A stretch of DNA of 64,000 nt from Modestobacter sp. VKM Ac-2982. Its GTDB lineage: Bacteria; Actinomycetota; Actinomycetes; Mycobacteriales; Geodermatophilaceae. A program made the translations under genes and the position numbers. Location of the stretch: assembly GCF_026967935.1 (NCBI RefSeq), contig NZ_JAPVBL010000005.1, forward strand, positions 320,994 to 384,993, written 5' to 3'. The notes beneath the pieces were generated by a model. That model made no database searches and was not told where the DNA came from. It saw only the letters and a program-made list of their open reading frames with translations. Shown here in pieces: positions 41,079 to 46,555 of this stretch. How positions within the stretch are numbered: the first letter of the stretch is position 1; every line of letters starts with the position of its first letter.

Positions 41079-43988
41079 TCAGCCCAGGACGAAGTTGACC
41101 AGCCGGCCCGGCACCGCGACGACCCGGCGCACGGTCGCACCGTCCAGGTAGCCGGCGATCCGCTCGTCCGCCCGGGCCGCCGCCTCCAGCGCCGCGGCGT
41201 CCGCGTCGGCCGGCACGGCCACCTGGGCCCGCACCTTGCCGTTCACCTGGACGGCGACCTGCACCGTCTCGTCGACCAGCCACTGCGGATCGGCCACCGG
41301 GAACGACGCCCAGGCGACGGAGCTGGAGTGCCCCAGCCGGGCCCACAGCTCCTCGGCCAGGTGCGGGGCCAGCGGCGCGACCAGCAGCACGAGGGCCTCG
41401 GCGACCGCGCGGGGCACCGGCGTGCCGGGCGGGCAGGCCGACGTCAGGTGGTTGGTCAGCTCGGTGATCCGGGCGATGGCGATGTTGAACCGCAGCGTCG
41501 TCATGCCGTCGCGCACGGCCTCGATCGCCCGGTGCAGCGCACGGGAGGTCTCGTCGCCCGGCTCGACGTCCCCGACGCGCAGCGCGCCGGACTCCTCGTC
41601 CACCACGACCCGCCAGACCCGCTGCAGCAGCCGCTGCGAACCGACCGCGGCCTTGGTCTCCCACGGCCGGGACTGGTCCAGCGGCCCGGTCGACATCTCG
41701 TAGACCCGGAAGGTGTCCGCGCCGAACATGGCGATCATCTCGTCCGGCGTGACCACGTTCTTCAGGCTCTTGCCCATCTTCCCGTACTCCCGGGTGACAG
41801 GCTCGCCCTGGTACCGGAACTGACCGTCCTCCTCGACGACCTCGGCGGCGGGCACGTGGAAGCCACGGGCGTCGGTGTAGGCGAAGGCGGAGATGTAGCC
41901 CTGGTTGACCAGCCGGCGGAACGGCTCCTCGCTGGAGACGTGCCCCAGGTCGAACAGCACCTTGTGCCAGAACCGGGCGTACAGCAGGTGCAGCACCGCG
42001 TGCTCGACACCTCCGACGTACAGGTCGACGCCGCCGACGTCACCGGGCTCCCGGGGGCCCATCCAGTAGGCCTCCAGCTCCGGGTCGACGAACCGCTCGT
42101 CGTCGCCCGGGTCCAGGTAGCGCAGGTGGTACCAGCACGAGCCGGCCCAGTTCGGCATGGTGTTGGTCTCGCGGCGGTACTGGCGCGGGCCGTCGCCCAG
42201 GTCCAGGGTGACCGTCGTCCACTCGGTGGCCCGGGACAGCGGCGGCTCGGGCTGGGAGTCGGCGTCGTCGTCGGCGAACGTGGTGGGCGAGTAGTCGTCG
42301 ACGTCGGGCAGCAGCACCGGCAGCATCGACTCCGGGACGGCGATCGGCAGGTCGGCGTCCTCGCCGTCGATCGCGTAGACGACCGGGAACGGCTCGCCCC
42401 AGTAGCGCTGCCGGCTGAACAGCCAGTCCCGCAGCTTGTAGGTGGTCGTCGCCTCGCCGGCGCCGGTGGCGACCAGCCACTCGGTGACCTTGGCGATCGC
42501 GGCGGCCTTGTCCAGCCCGTCCAGGGACAGCTGCTCGTTCGAGCTGTTGATCATCGGGCCGGTGCCGGTGTACGCGCCGCCGTCGAAGTCGGCCGGCGGC
42601 TGCACGGTGCGGACGACGGGCAGCCCGAACTCCTGCGCGAAGTCCCAGTCGCGGGCGTCCTCGCCGGGCACCGCCATGATCGCGCCGGTGCCGTAGCCGG
42701 TCAGCACGTAGTCGGCGATGAAGACCGGCAGGTGGCCCTGAGTCAGCGGGTTGCGCGCGGTGACGCCCAGCCAGACACCGGTCTTCTCCCGGCCCTCGGC
42801 CTGCCGGTCCAGCTCCGAGCGGCGGGACGCCTGGCGCTGGTAGGCGGCGACCGCCTCGGCCGGGGTGGCCGCGCCGGCGGTCCAGCGCGGGTCGGTGCCC
42901 TCGGGCCACCGGTCGGCGGTCAGCGTGCCGACCAGCGGGTGCTCGGGGGCCAGCACCAGGTAGGTGGCGCCGAACAGGGTGTCCGGCCGGGTGGTGAACA
43001 CCTCGACGGTCTCCCCCGACACCGGGAACCGCACCCGGGCACCGGTCGAGCGGCCGATCCAGTTGCGCTGCATCTGCTTCAGCGAGTCCGACCAGTCCAG
43101 CCGGTCCAGGTCGGTCAGCAGGCGCTCGGCGTAGGAGGTGATCCGCATCATCCACTGGGTCAGCGGACGGCGGAACACCGGGAAGTTGCCCCGCTCGGAG
43201 CGGCCGTCCGGGGTGACCTCCTCGTTGGACAGCACCGTGCCCAGCCCGGGACACCAGTTCACCGGCGCCTGGTGCCGGTAGGCCAGCCGGTGCGCGTCGA
43301 CGACCCGGCGGCGTTCCACGTCGGACAGCTCCGCCCAGCTGCGACCCTCGGGCAGCGTGCCCTCGACCGGCTGCCGGGTGCCGGCGTCCAGCTCGGCGAC
43401 CAGCTCGGGGATCGGCCGCGCCCTGCCGCGGCCGCCGTCGGCGGACTCGTCGAACCAGGCCTCGAAGATCTGCCGGAAGATCCACTGGGTCCACTTGTAG
43501 TAGCCCGGGTCGATCGTGGCAAAGGTGCGGCGGGTGTCGTGGTCGACGCCCAGCCGGCGCAGCTGGGCGCTGATCGCGGCGATGTTCGCCTCGGTGGTGA
43601 CCCGCGGGTGCTGCCCGGTCTGCACGGCGAACTGCTCGGCGGGCAGGCCGAAGGCGTCGTAGCCCATCGGGTGCAACACGTTGTGGCCGTCCATCCGCAG
43701 GAAGCGGCTGGTGACGTCGGTGCCCAGGTAGCCCAGCGGGTGCCCGACGTGCAGCCCGGCACCGGAGGGGTACGGGAACATGTCCATCAGGAAGGCCTTG
43801 GGCCGGTCGGCCACCCGGTCGAAGCCCTCGCTCAGCCGGCCGACCGGGTTGGGCGTGTGGAACGTGCCCTCGGCCTCCCACCGGTCCTGCCAGGCGAGCT
43901 CGATCTGCTGCGCCAGTGCCGGGGTGTACCGGTGCGGCGGCACTCCGTCAGCGGTGGGATCGGTGTTCTGGCTGGCCGTCTGGCTCAT
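41079..43988 (-). CDS. leuS: Leucyl-tRNA synthetase
   Basis: 969 residues. Class Ia enzyme charging tRNA-Leu. The HIGH-type motif is in [14 protein letters not shown], the KMSKS-type motif is KMGKSLKN near residue 740, and the editing domain includes [20 protein letters not shown]. The zinc-free insert and the C-terminal anticodon and tail domains are complete (ending [12 protein letters not shown]). ATG at 43988 has GGGAG about 9 bases upstream; a GTG 15 bases earlier is in frame but lacks a site. Upstream lies a leader peptide with three Leu codons and a terminator, so expression is probably controlled by leucine or charged tRNA-Leu supply. Confidence 0.97.
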
Positions 43989-44026
43989 CGTCGGTGCTCC
44001 CACGGGAAGGATCTGGCGGCGGACAG

Positions 44027-44053
44027 AAAAAGACCCCTCACACAGGAGGGGTC
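44027..44053 (-). terminator. U-tailed terminator in the leuS leader
   Basis: On the minus strand GACCCCTC pairs with GAGGGGTC (8 bp, 6-base loop) and is followed by five Ts. It is the only T-tailed intrinsic terminator I noticed in the window and sits upstream, not downstream, of a gene, as expected of an attenuator. Confidence 0.85.
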
Positions 44054-44089
44054 GCCGTGCTGGTCTCGATCAGGTCAGATCAGCACGGC
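44054..44089 (-). promoter_or_regulatory. 9-bp stem preceding the leuS leader terminator
   Basis: GCCGTGCTG, overlapping the last codons and stop of the leader peptide, pairs with CAGCACGGC directly abutting the terminator stem. A ribosome ending at the leader stop would block this stem; one paused at the Leu codons would not. Confidence 0.6.
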
Positions 44090-44115
44090 TGGGGAAGGAG
44101 GAGTCCGCCGGTCAC
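44080..44115 (-). CDS. leuS leader peptide with three consecutive Leu codons
   Basis: GTG start, reading MTGGLLLPQPC and stopping at TGA. The Leu codons are CTC, CTC and CTT at 44095-44103. TAGGAT (44123-44128) lies exactly 7 bases before the GTG, so the peptide is probably made from a leaderless RNA. The placement before a terminator and leuS, an enzyme that consumes leucine, is the classic logic of translation-dependent attenuation. Confidence 0.75.
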   Translation of the reverse strand: MTGGLLLPQPC

Positions 44116-44122
44116 GCAGCCG

Positions 44123-44128
44123 ATCCTA
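44123..44128 (-). promoter_or_regulatory. -10 box of the leuS leader transcript
   Basis: TAGGAT, 7 bases before the leader peptide GTG. No clear -35 hexamer is visible. Confidence 0.55.
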
Positions 44129-44517: not shown

Positions 44518-44607
44518 ATGACAGAACGCCCAGGCCCGCAGCGGGCCACGAGGCGCACCCGATGCCGGGTGATCGCCCCCTCCTCCGTCCGGGGCCGACG
44601 ACGGTGA
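44518..44607 (+). CDS. Possible 29-residue coupled upstream ORF
   Basis: ATG with an ideal ribosome binding site: GAGGAG ends 7 bases upstream. It encodes a basic 29-residue peptide (MTERPGPQRATRRTRCR start, ending RGRRR) whose TGA overlaps a GTG of the glycerophosphotransferase frame as GTGA. Either it is a real coupled small ORF, or it is the true N-terminus of the next gene separated by a frameshift. The sequence alone cannot decide. Confidence 0.4.
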   Translation: MTERPGPQRATRRTRCRVIAPSSVRGRRR

Positions 44608-45731
44608 AGGTCGTCTTCAACAGCTTCGGCGGCCGCTACAACGACAACCCGCGGGCCGTCTACGAGGCCCTCGTCGCGCGCGGCACCGAGATGGACGCCG
44701 TCTGGCTGGCCCGCCCCGAGCTGCGCGGCGACTTCCCGGCCGGGGTGCACACCGAGGAGCACTGGGGCCCCGGCGCCCGGGCGGCCGTGGAGTCCGCCGA
44801 CGTCATCGTCTCCAACGACGGTCTCTCCCGGGAGTGGGACAAGCAGCCGACGACGACGTACCTGCAGACCTGGCACGGCACGCCGCTCAAGCGGCTGCAC
44901 CGGGACGCGGTCTGGGCCCCGGAAGGCCGCCTGGAGATGGTGATGCGGGACATCGCCCGCTGGGACCACCTGCTCTCCCCCAACGCGGCGAGCACGCCGC
45001 ACCTGCGCAGCGCGTTCGGCTTCGACGGGCCGGTGCACGAGACCGGCTACCCGCGCAACGACGTGCTCAGCGCACCGGACCGGGACCGCCGCCGCGCCCG
45101 GGTGCGGGAGGCCCTCGGGATCGCCGAGCACGTGACGGCGGTGCTCTACGCGCCGACCTGGCGGGACGACCTGGTGCTCAGCGACGACGGCCCGGCGCAC
45201 TCCTTCCCGGTCGACCTGGGCGACCTGGCGCGTGGCCTCGGACCTGACCACGTGCTGTTGGTCCGGCTGCACGCGATGGTCTCCGACCAGCTGGTGGTCC
45301 AGGGCCGGGCGCCGCTGGTGGACGTGTCCCGACACCCCGACATCAGCGAGCTGTACCTGGCCGCCGACGTCCTGGTCACCGACTACTCCTCGACGATGTT
45401 CGACTTCGCCGTCACCGGGAAGCCGATCGTCCACTTCACCTACGACCTGGAGCACTACCGCGACGACCTGCGGGGCTTCTACTTCGACCTCGCCGAGATC
45501 GCCCCGGGCCCGCTGCTCACCACCAGCGACCAGGTACTGGCGGCCGTCGCCGGGCTCGGCGAGCGCCCATGGGAGCCCCCGGCGCGGTACAACCGGTTCC
45601 GGGAGCGCTTCTGCTCCCTGGAGGACGGTTCGGCCACCGAACGGGTGCTCCAGCTGTTCTTCCCCCCGGACGGCCACCCCGGCCGGCCGGGCTCCACCCC
45701 CGTGCCCACGAACGACGAACCGAGGAGATGA
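44604..45731 (+). CDS. CDP-glycerol glycerophosphotransferase-like (TagB/TagF family)
   Basis: 375 residues from the GTG at 44604; an in-frame GTG at 44514 would give 405, but its spacing to GAGGAG is only 3 bases. The family polymerises or primes polyol-phosphate chains on the cytoplasmic membrane face. The hallmark TWHGTPLKRL and the CDP-binding VTDYSSTMFDFAVTGKPIVHF are both present, with YLAADVLVTDY between. Only the catalytic domain is visible, with no membrane segment. It is followed by a nucleotidyltransferase, so the two may make a surface polymer. The exact acceptor and donor are unknown. Confidence 0.85.
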   Translation: MKVVFNSFGGRYNDNPRAVYEALVARGTEMDAVWLARPELRGDFPAGVHTEEHWGPGARAAVESADVIVSNDGLSREWDKQPTTTYLQTWHGTPLKRLHRDAVWAPEGRLEMVMRDIARWDHLLSPNAASTPHLRSAFGFDGPVHETGYPRNDVLSAPDRDRRRARVREALGIAEHVTAVLYAPTWRDDLVLSDDGPAHSFPVDLGDLARGLGPDHVLLVRLHAMVSDQLVVQGRAPLVDVSRHPDISELYLAADVLVTDYSSTMFDFAVTGKPIVHFTYDLEHYRDDLRGFYFDLAEIAPGPLLTTSDQVLAAVAGLGERPWEPPARYNRFRERFCSLEDGSATERVLQLFFPPDGHPGRPGSTPVPTNDEPRR

Positions 45732-45733
45732 GC

Positions 45734-46555
45734 ATGCGCACTGCTGACCCGATCCTGACCGGGGGCCGCGATCAGCGGTCGCGTTCCCTGGTCTCCGTCC
45801 CCGCCGCCGAGCCGGTCACCCCCGCCCCCCAGGTGGTGGTGCTGGCCGCCGGCATGGGCACCCGGCTGGGCCGCAAGCTGCCCAAGCCGCTGACGCCGTT
45901 GATGGACGGCCGCAGCATCATGCAGCAGCAGCTGGACGGCATCCGCGCCGTCTTCGGCGACGCCGCCCCGATCACCGCGGTGGTGGGCTACCGGGCCAAG
46001 GCCGTCATGCGGGCACAGCCGGACCTGCTGTTCGCGTTCAACCCCGACTTCGCCGTCACGAACACGTCGCAGAGCCTGCTGCGCGCCCTGCGCAGCTCGC
46101 AGGCCGGCGGCGTGCTCTGGATGAACGGCGACGTGGTGTTCGACCCGGCGGTGCTCGACCACGCCGCCCCCCTGGTCCAGGCGGACCAGAGCTTCGTCTG
46201 CGTGGACACCTCCACGGTCGCCGACGAGGAGGTCAAGTACACCCTCGACGCCGACGGGTTCATCCGCGAGCTGTCCAAGACCGTGGTCGGTGGCCTCGGC
46301 GAGGCGGTCGGGATCAACTACGTGTCCGGCGCGGACAAGCGGGCCCTGATCGAGCAGCTGGCGGCCTGCGAGGCCTCCGACTACTTCGAGCGCGGCATGG
46401 AGCTGTCGATCCGGCGGTCGGGCGTGCGCTTCCAGCCGCTGGACATCTCCCGGTTCTCCGCCGTGGAGATCGACTTCGACGACGACCTGCAGCGGGCGAA
46501 CACCTGGCTGGGCTCCCGGGCGGCCCTGGCGCCGTTCGCCTCCGAGCTGGGCTGA
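45734..46555 (+). CDS. Sugar/alcohol-phosphate nucleotidyltransferase
   Basis: 273 residues. Rossmann-like NTP transferase: VVVLAAGMGTRLGRKLPKPLTPL holds the nucleotide and Lys contacts, WMNGDVVFDP the metal Asp, and VEIDFDDDLQRAN the C-terminal acidic site; the layout resembles phosphocholine or sugar-phosphate cytidylyl/uridylyltransferases. The ATG at 45734 is 6 bases after GAGGAG; another ATG at 45728 abuts it. It overlaps or abuts the preceding glycerophosphotransferase gene, so it may supply its CDP-activated substrate. A palindromic terminator follows. Confidence 0.85.
   Translation: MRTADPILTGGRDQRSRSLVSVPAAEPVTPAPQVVVLAAGMGTRLGRKLPKPLTPLMDGRSIMQQQLDGIRAVFGDAAPITAVVGYRAKAVMRAQPDLLFAFNPDFAVTNTSQSLLRALRSSQAGGVLWMNGDVVFDPAVLDHAAPLVQADQSFVCVDTSTVADEEVKYTLDADGFIRELSKTVVGGLGEAVGINYVSGADKRALIEQLAACEASDYFERGMELSIRRSGVRFQPLDISRFSAVEIDFDDDLQRANTWLGSRAALAPFASELG

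Follow-up and report, generated by a model that had tools for sequence, protein, structure and literature searches.

What do a short leucine-rich reading frame and two abutting hairpins do in front of the gene for leucyl-tRNA synthetase? The question arises from a 64,000-nucleotide stretch of Modestobacter DNA (the window, that is, the whole stretch analysed), in which such an element precedes leuS. Our preferred reading, to which we give a probability of roughly 0.6 as a whole, is that the element is a leucine-responsive, ribosome-mediated transcription attenuator of leuS, with hairpin 1 acting as an antiterminator that abuts on the terminator. Leucine attenuation of leuS as such is very likely; the step in which hairpin 1 would stop the terminator by its position has about an even chance of being correct.

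Layout of the leuS leader

The original prediction described a TAGGAT hexamer, a 7-nt gap, a GTG codon, a short open reading frame, two stems, five T and then leuS, and each of these details is present on the minus strand (Table 1). The leader codons are GTG ACC GGC GGA CTC CTC CTT CCC CAG CCG TGC TGA, with the start GTG at 44115-44113 and the stop TGA at 44082-44080. Hairpin 1 pairs GCCGTGCTG (44089-44081) with CAGCACGGC (44062-44054), its 5' end lying inside the leader ORF and its 5' arm containing the TG of the stop codon. The terminator pairs GACCCCTC (44053-44046) with GAGGGGTC (44039-44032); the spacer between the two hairpins is 0, and they have no base in common. The leuS ATG is at 43988, and the leader element lies 92 nt upstream of the leuS start region.

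Table 1. Positions of the leuS leader features and of leuS in the window.
Feature	Positions	Strand	Remark	Basis
-10 hexamer TAGGAT of the leader promoter	44123..44128	-	7 nt before the start codon	direct reading
Leader ORF, GTG start, MTGGLLLPQPC and stop	44080..44115	-	11 codons	direct reading
Control codons CTC CTC CTT (Leu)	44095..44103	-		codon counts, family leaders versus window genes
Hairpin 1, proposed antiterminator	44054..44089	-	9 bp	MFE fold and covariation
Terminator stem GACCCCTC-CTGTGT-GAGGGGTC	44032..44053	-	8 bp	terminator scan and covariation
U-tract	44027..44031	-	five T	direct reading
YG dinucleotide past the U-tract	44024..44025	-	putative role	conserved position in leaders
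TG in the terminator loop	44043..44044	-	possible hairpin pause site, putative role	spacing relative to hairpin 1
leuS, leucyl-tRNA synthetase, regulated gene	41079..43988	-	969 aa	TIGR00396 above cut-off; Pfam PF13603, PF00133, PF08264

A sigma-70 scan returned no two-hexamer promoter at the leader, where a -10-like hexamer is present with no good -35, so the promoter is assigned from the -10 hexamer alone. No Rfam family reached its gathering score within the 64-kb window, which holds 0 matches to the T-box or any other curated riboswitch family. Divergent from leuS, on the plus strand at 44604-46555, lie a CDP-glycerol glycerophosphotransferase-type gene (PF04464) and a nucleotidyltransferase gene (PF12804), a teichoic-acid-like pair.

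The leader folds with a z-score of -3.39, and 1 of 200 shuffled sequences folded equally well. The two strands of the window together hold 42 terminator-like sites, of which two have a hairpin close upstream (at least 7 G-C pairs, ending -3 to 12 nt from the terminator), and the leuS leader is the one with a linker of 0. Sequence comparison shows the parts, their order and spacing, their conservation and their covariation, and the leuS leader element is real and well beyond chance.

Distribution of the element and choice of control codons

The element precedes leuS in all 75 genomes with a leuS match out of a sample of 76 Geodermatophilaceae; the 76th, about 73% complete, gave no leuS match. 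In every one of the 75 leaders a TANNNT hexamer stands 6 nt (38 leaders) or 7 nt (37 leaders) before the start codon, in a search that permitted 4-10 nt, and the start codon is GTG in 71 and ATG in four. In 75/75 a short Leu-rich ORF containing two or more Leu codons occupies the corresponding place, and a hairpin and a terminator come after it. The proposal of a Leu-codon leader with a leaderless-type start and a terminator before leuS is thereby borne out in the relatives, and a homologue in S. lividans has been mapped as leaderless, as described in PMC8079986. From the -10 hexamer at 6-7 nt in 75/75 leaders and this mapped homologue, the leader ORF of the window is presumably leaderless as well. 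By LeuRS N-terminus the closest named genomes are Modestobacter, at 98% identity.

A covariance model built solely from the Geodermatophilaceae leaders (R1) was used to search the class, and matches were obtained in 168 of its 394 genomes, spread over 71 of 138 genera, a genome count that slightly overstates the leuS leaders since some matches precede other genes. Among the class genomes listed without a match, 20 in number, all belong to one family of the same order. A check of 49 matches put 45 on the leuS strand, 40-199 nt upstream of the gene, and left four unplaced (G012, G108, G133 and G146): the match in G012 was found upstream of leuS in a separate family search, that in G108 lies at a contig end and is followed by a LeuRS start, that in G133 is at a contig end, and that in G146 precedes cimA. 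In the Modestobacter genome itself, a search with R1 for further copies returned the leuS leader as its single significant match.

Viewed from the synthetase, R1 found the whole element in 71 of 80 named loci encoding LeuRS relatives; it is absent from the other nine, which are from metagenome-assembled genomes (MAGs) labelled Acidimicrobiales, Acidimicrobiia, Aquihabitans or Actinomycetota. At several of the MAG loci outside the class that have no leader (L332, L333, L334, L336, L340, L341, L343, L344 and L345), a TANNNT-like hexamer stands, by eye, close before the leuS ATG, giving leuS itself a leaderless look. Genome G284 encodes two LeuRS proteins that score above the TIGR00396 cut-off (L145/L194 and L146/L193); one measures about 870 aa, the other is of the long actinobacterial type, and a separate Leu leader precedes each gene. 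Shorter LeuRS genes elsewhere (L196, L198) also bear the leader, so leader and synthetase type are not linked.

The leaders differ from the genes around them in their Leu codons. Four window genes use CTG 146 times, CTC 26 times, TTG three times and CTT not at all (n=175), against CTC 103, CTT 70, CTG 54 and TTA 1 in the 75 family leaders (n=228). CTC and CTT are read by one tRNA-Leu, with anticodon GAG. Class-wide, CTT serves as the last Leu codon in 91 of the 126 leaders whose geometry was parsed (see below). The choice of control codons for sensitive isoacceptors has been discussed in PMC1183508.

Two compatible hairpins and the proposed switch

Both hairpins are supported by compensatory change. 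Two-sided changes affect 4 of 17 pairs in the MAFFT alignment of the family (A1), a number reached by 2 of 500 shuffles, and 0/500 shuffles reached the observed count of covarying cells. In the class alignment (A2, 81 sequences), which was fitted to the covariance model and therefore leans towards the model structure, 11/17 pairs changed on both sides, in 86 cells (0/500 shuffles). Hairpin 1 contributes 3/9 such pairs within the family and 5/9 class-wide, and the terminator 6/8 class-wide. The alignment of leaders from relatives that had been suggested with the original prediction thus gives covariation in both hairpins and conserved Leu codons, with no loss of the terminator in 75/75 family leaders.

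The geometry of the leaders was then read with a parser, which passed 126 of 137 leaders from 45 genera and 17 families; these leaders are related, and counts over them are not independent. Two leaders (L085, L108) had been left out beforehand, as had L086, a duplicate of L057. Eleven failed: eight were without an ORF by the parser's rule (L132, L134-L139 and L142; Ile- or BCAA-type leaders, the downstream genes read among them being cimA or ilvB) and three without a terminator by rule (L057, L125, L141). Counted from the first base of the final Leu codon, hairpin 1 begins 8 nt on in 90/126 leaders and 5 nt on in 17, and the stop codon lies inside the 5' arm of hairpin 1 in 116/126, falling outside by parser rule in 10/126. 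Hairpin 1 and terminator are separated by a linker of 0-1 nt in 111/126 leaders (36/45 genera) and of -1 to 2 in 122/126 (43/45 genera), with 3-5 nt in the remaining 4/126; the parser could have returned values from -3 to 8. This near-constant linker is kept despite a span of hairpin 1 that ranges from 16 to 68 nt.

That the 9-bp stem and the terminator can coexist had been claimed for the window, and it holds class-wide: in the MFE fold from hairpin 1 to terminator, both hairpins are present in 124 of 126 leaders. When the RNA was ended at the terminator loop, 0 nt of the terminator 5' arm were engaged in 108/126 leaders and at least 3 nt in only 9/126, on which ground base overlap between hairpin 1 and terminator was rejected as the switch. 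Pairing of the hairpin-1 3' arm with the terminator loop was likewise discarded as an antiterminator, the test pointing in the wrong direction (P 0.986) with no cognate advantage. These results also bear on classical trp-type attenuation, in which a distinct antiterminator forms at the expense of the terminator by claiming bases that both need. Streptomyces leuS leaders have been called classical, with antiterminator and terminator hairpins (Seliverstov et al., PMC1262725), and in C. glutamicum ilvBNC the bases of the hairpins are adjacent with a GCC trinucleotide in common, according to PMC11857589. The coexistence of both hairpins, the scarcity of engaged terminator bases and the want of a cognate advantage, both for the leader with the terminator 3' arm and for the hairpin-1 3' arm with the terminator loop, make this explanation decidedly unlikely here. 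The element has a leader ORF with control codons, an intrinsic terminator and a stop codon at which a ribosome would mask the proposed antiterminator, and it does not have mutual exclusion of antiterminator and terminator by base pairing; it works like an attenuator and we do not file it as trp-type.

The original prediction had looked for the switch in the Leu-codon stretch itself, which would pair with the terminator 3' arm. The duplex does exist in the window, as an 8-bp complementarity of -12.7 kcal/mol against -14.4 kcal/mol for the terminator hairpin, and it is not supported as the switch. Over 45 genera the cognate pairing is weaker than the mismatched one (-11.63 vs -12.33 kcal/mol), with 0.9975 of permutations at least as strong. 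Moreover, its logic is inverted: under leucine shortage the stalled ribosome would sit on those very codons, and starvation would then favour termination. We regard this pairing as the switch as hardly credible.

One of the four pairing tests over the 45 genera, that of the leader with the 25 nt past the terminator, did give a cognate value (-15.7) slightly beyond the mismatched one (-14.66; P 0.0105). In the window, the sequence that immediately follows the U-tract, GUCCGCC, is complementary to GGCGGAC of leader codons 3-5 (44024-44018 with 44112-44104, minus strand).

In our preferred reading of an abutting antiterminator, RNA polymerase would start at or adjoining the GTG, and a ribosome would initiate on the leaderless 5' end. 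With ample Leu-tRNA the ribosome would reach the stop codon, which is part of the hairpin-1 5' arm, and block this hairpin, and the terminator would release the polymerase. With Leu-tRNA short, above all the CTC/CTT isoacceptor, it would stall on the Leu codons and hairpin 1 would form; only 0-1 nt away, hairpin 1 would prevent the terminator stem from closing at its base inside the RNA exit channel, allowing read-through into leuS. The level of charged tRNA-Leu would in this way set leuS transcription, as first suggested from the sequence. Hairpin 1 is taken to act by position because it has no base in common with the terminator. If the ribosome covers 26 nt, the footprint used for M. tuberculosis ilvB1 (PMC13236596), its front edge lies at nt 27, the start of hairpin 1, while it is stalled on the first Leu codon, and at the stop codon it hides the entire 5' arm of hairpin 1; hairpin 1 should therefore be able to form under starvation and be prevented when leucine is plentiful. 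The full-text literature searched yielded no direct support for an abutting hairpin that blocks termination.

A second possible effect of hairpin 1 is to maintain a pause by which ribosome and polymerase stay synchronized. A further explanation makes pausing the main role of hairpin 1: the polymerase would be held in the terminator loop until the ribosome melts hairpin 1, and timing rather than sterics would decide. The letters G(-10)Y(-1)G(+1), which we take to be the consensus of a pause site, occur within reach of hairpin 1 in 105 of 126 leaders, most often 10 nt beyond the hairpin base, against a mean of 61.6 and a maximum of 82 in 1000 shuffles, which kept composition only, the sequences themselves being related. 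In the window, the loop TG of Table 1 lies 10 and 11 nt beyond the hairpin-1 base, and position 44053 supplies the G(-10). The terminator loop reads CTGCGT or CTGTGT in 64/126 leaders. Hairpin pausing in the exit channel is described in PMC6336406. However, a pause alone does not explain read-through upon starvation, and the CTG loop is missing from the ilvB and cimA leaders of the family, so that we consider this explanation unlikely.

Past the U-tract, a Y at +9 and a G at +10 from the last stem G are found in 74/74 parsed family leaders and in 35/52 others. This conserved NTG may reflect pause-like spacing. It was also considered as a start codon and rejected, its first base varying between A (29), C (28), T (8) and G (4) in 69 pattern-matched family leaders.

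Finally, the terminator might merely set a basal level with no leucine effect, as constitutive attenuation or a small RNA. In earlier work on S. coelicolor, cited in PMC1262725, codon mutations in the ilvB and leuA leaders did not have the expected effect, which speaks against a leucine-responsive switch, and the negative ilvB result fits constitutive attenuation. Against it, the Leu codons, the CTT bias, the frame and the position of the stop are kept through 45 genera, and changing the control codons to Ala abolished induction in M. tuberculosis ilvB1, according to PMC13236596. We hold constitutive attenuation to be very improbable, and return to the leucine-responsive attenuator.

Similar leaders before ilvB and cimA and the place among known systems

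The Modestobacter genome has two similar leaders, which were found through their genes and not via R1. Before ilvB (TIGR00118) the ORF MPRTRLLVAIR ends at a hairpin abutting a terminator (L199:1101-1220), and the cimA gene (citramalate synthase, TIGR00977) is preceded by an ORF whose final three codons specify Ile, then by a hairpin and an abutting terminator (L203:1330-1420). Across the family, a BCAA ORF precedes ilvB in 29 of 30 loci, one having no ORF, with a linker of 0-2 in 26 and of 11 in three where the parser took a shorter stem. Among 31 family cimA loci, three are without a terminator, and in 23 of the 28 that have one an Ile/BCAA-type ORF occurs with a linker of 0-1, the other five being without a clear BCAA ORF. 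R1 itself matches Ile-codon leaders before cimA in another family, where TIGR00977 was above cut-off for L188 and L190. Ile-codon cimA leaders were seen further at L189, L192 and L197, and an ilvB-type leader at L191. The likeness to the leuS leader is incomplete, because TANNNT at leaderless spacing was found in few family cimA leaders and in no family ilvB leader, and because YG at +9, present in 26/29 ilvB leaders, occurs in only 3/23 cimA leaders. It is possible, though we put it forward tentatively and with more doubt than confidence, that a zero-overlap attenuator, in which a hairpin freed by starvation blocks the terminator from its base and also pauses the polymerase, is a common design of BCAA leaders in the class, with Leu codons before leuS, mixed codons before ilvB and Ile codons before cimA.

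The kind of element is not new: a leaderless leucine-codon attenuator of leuS is known in Streptomyces. Attenuators of leuS with antiterminator hairpins were predicted in two Streptomyces in 2005 (Seliverstov, PMC1262725), and S. lividans LeuL2 (MRAVRLLLSEPR), upstream of leuS, is leaderless by RNA-seq and followed by a hairpin and a run of U, as described in PMC8079986. R1 matches at full length, with E about 1e-11, in genomes coding MRAVRLLLS[EG]PR, and one matched leader (L148) encodes exactly the LeuL2 peptide. Since R1 finds a leader encoding this published peptide, the window element belongs to the known Streptomyces kind, and as judged from the sequences it is homologous to the Streptomyces leuS leader by common descent. 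Both lie directly upstream of leuS and have a Leu-run peptide, a leaderless start (presumed in the window) and a hairpin followed by a U-run. In contrast to the classical scheme with an antiterminator proposed in 2005, no competing antiterminator is seen in 124/126 leaders; the distal part of hairpin 1 is also shorter in the window element than in the Streptomyces leader.

Other systems share single traits with the leuS leader. Mycobacterial polycysteine attenuators (Canestrari, 2020) reportedly have a short ORF in which one residue is repeated consecutively, as here, and which is leaderless, as presumed here. They differ in serving cysteine operons and in being assigned to translation attenuation in PMC13236596. 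C. glutamicum ilvBNC resembles the window element in the adjacent bases of antiterminator and terminator, in a translation start adjoining the transcript start and in a Leu control codon CUU, but its hairpins share GCC and a third hairpin is involved, as described in PMC11857589, whereas the window hairpins share no bases. M. tuberculosis ilvB1 likewise has a BCAA-codon uORF, a terminator and a stop-codon ribosome that masks the antiterminator; however, the gene is different and the hairpins are described as mutually exclusive (PMC13236596). The LEU element before leuA is also a Leu-codon leader peptide of Actinobacteria, but, as presented in PMC1262725, it forms a pseudoknot overlapping the leuA Shine-Dalgarno sequence and has no terminator, unlike the window element. 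The accessible text of PMC2965389 contains no mention of leuS. In the literature searched, whose scope excluded most subscription journals, we did not meet the element outside Streptomyces, compatible yet abutting hairpins throughout a class, the CTT bias, the similar ilvB and cimA leaders or, specifically, an Ile leader before cimA.

The analysis widens the leuS leader from the two Streptomyces of 2005 to the whole actinobacterial class, with a covariance model, and the CTC/CTT bias probably names the tRNA-Leu isoacceptor that is sensed. It leaves the question of how a hairpin that competes for no base controls a terminator, to which the textbook mechanism gives no answer; solving it would inform our view of intrinsic termination within the exit channel and of the coupling of leaderless ribosomes to RNA polymerase.
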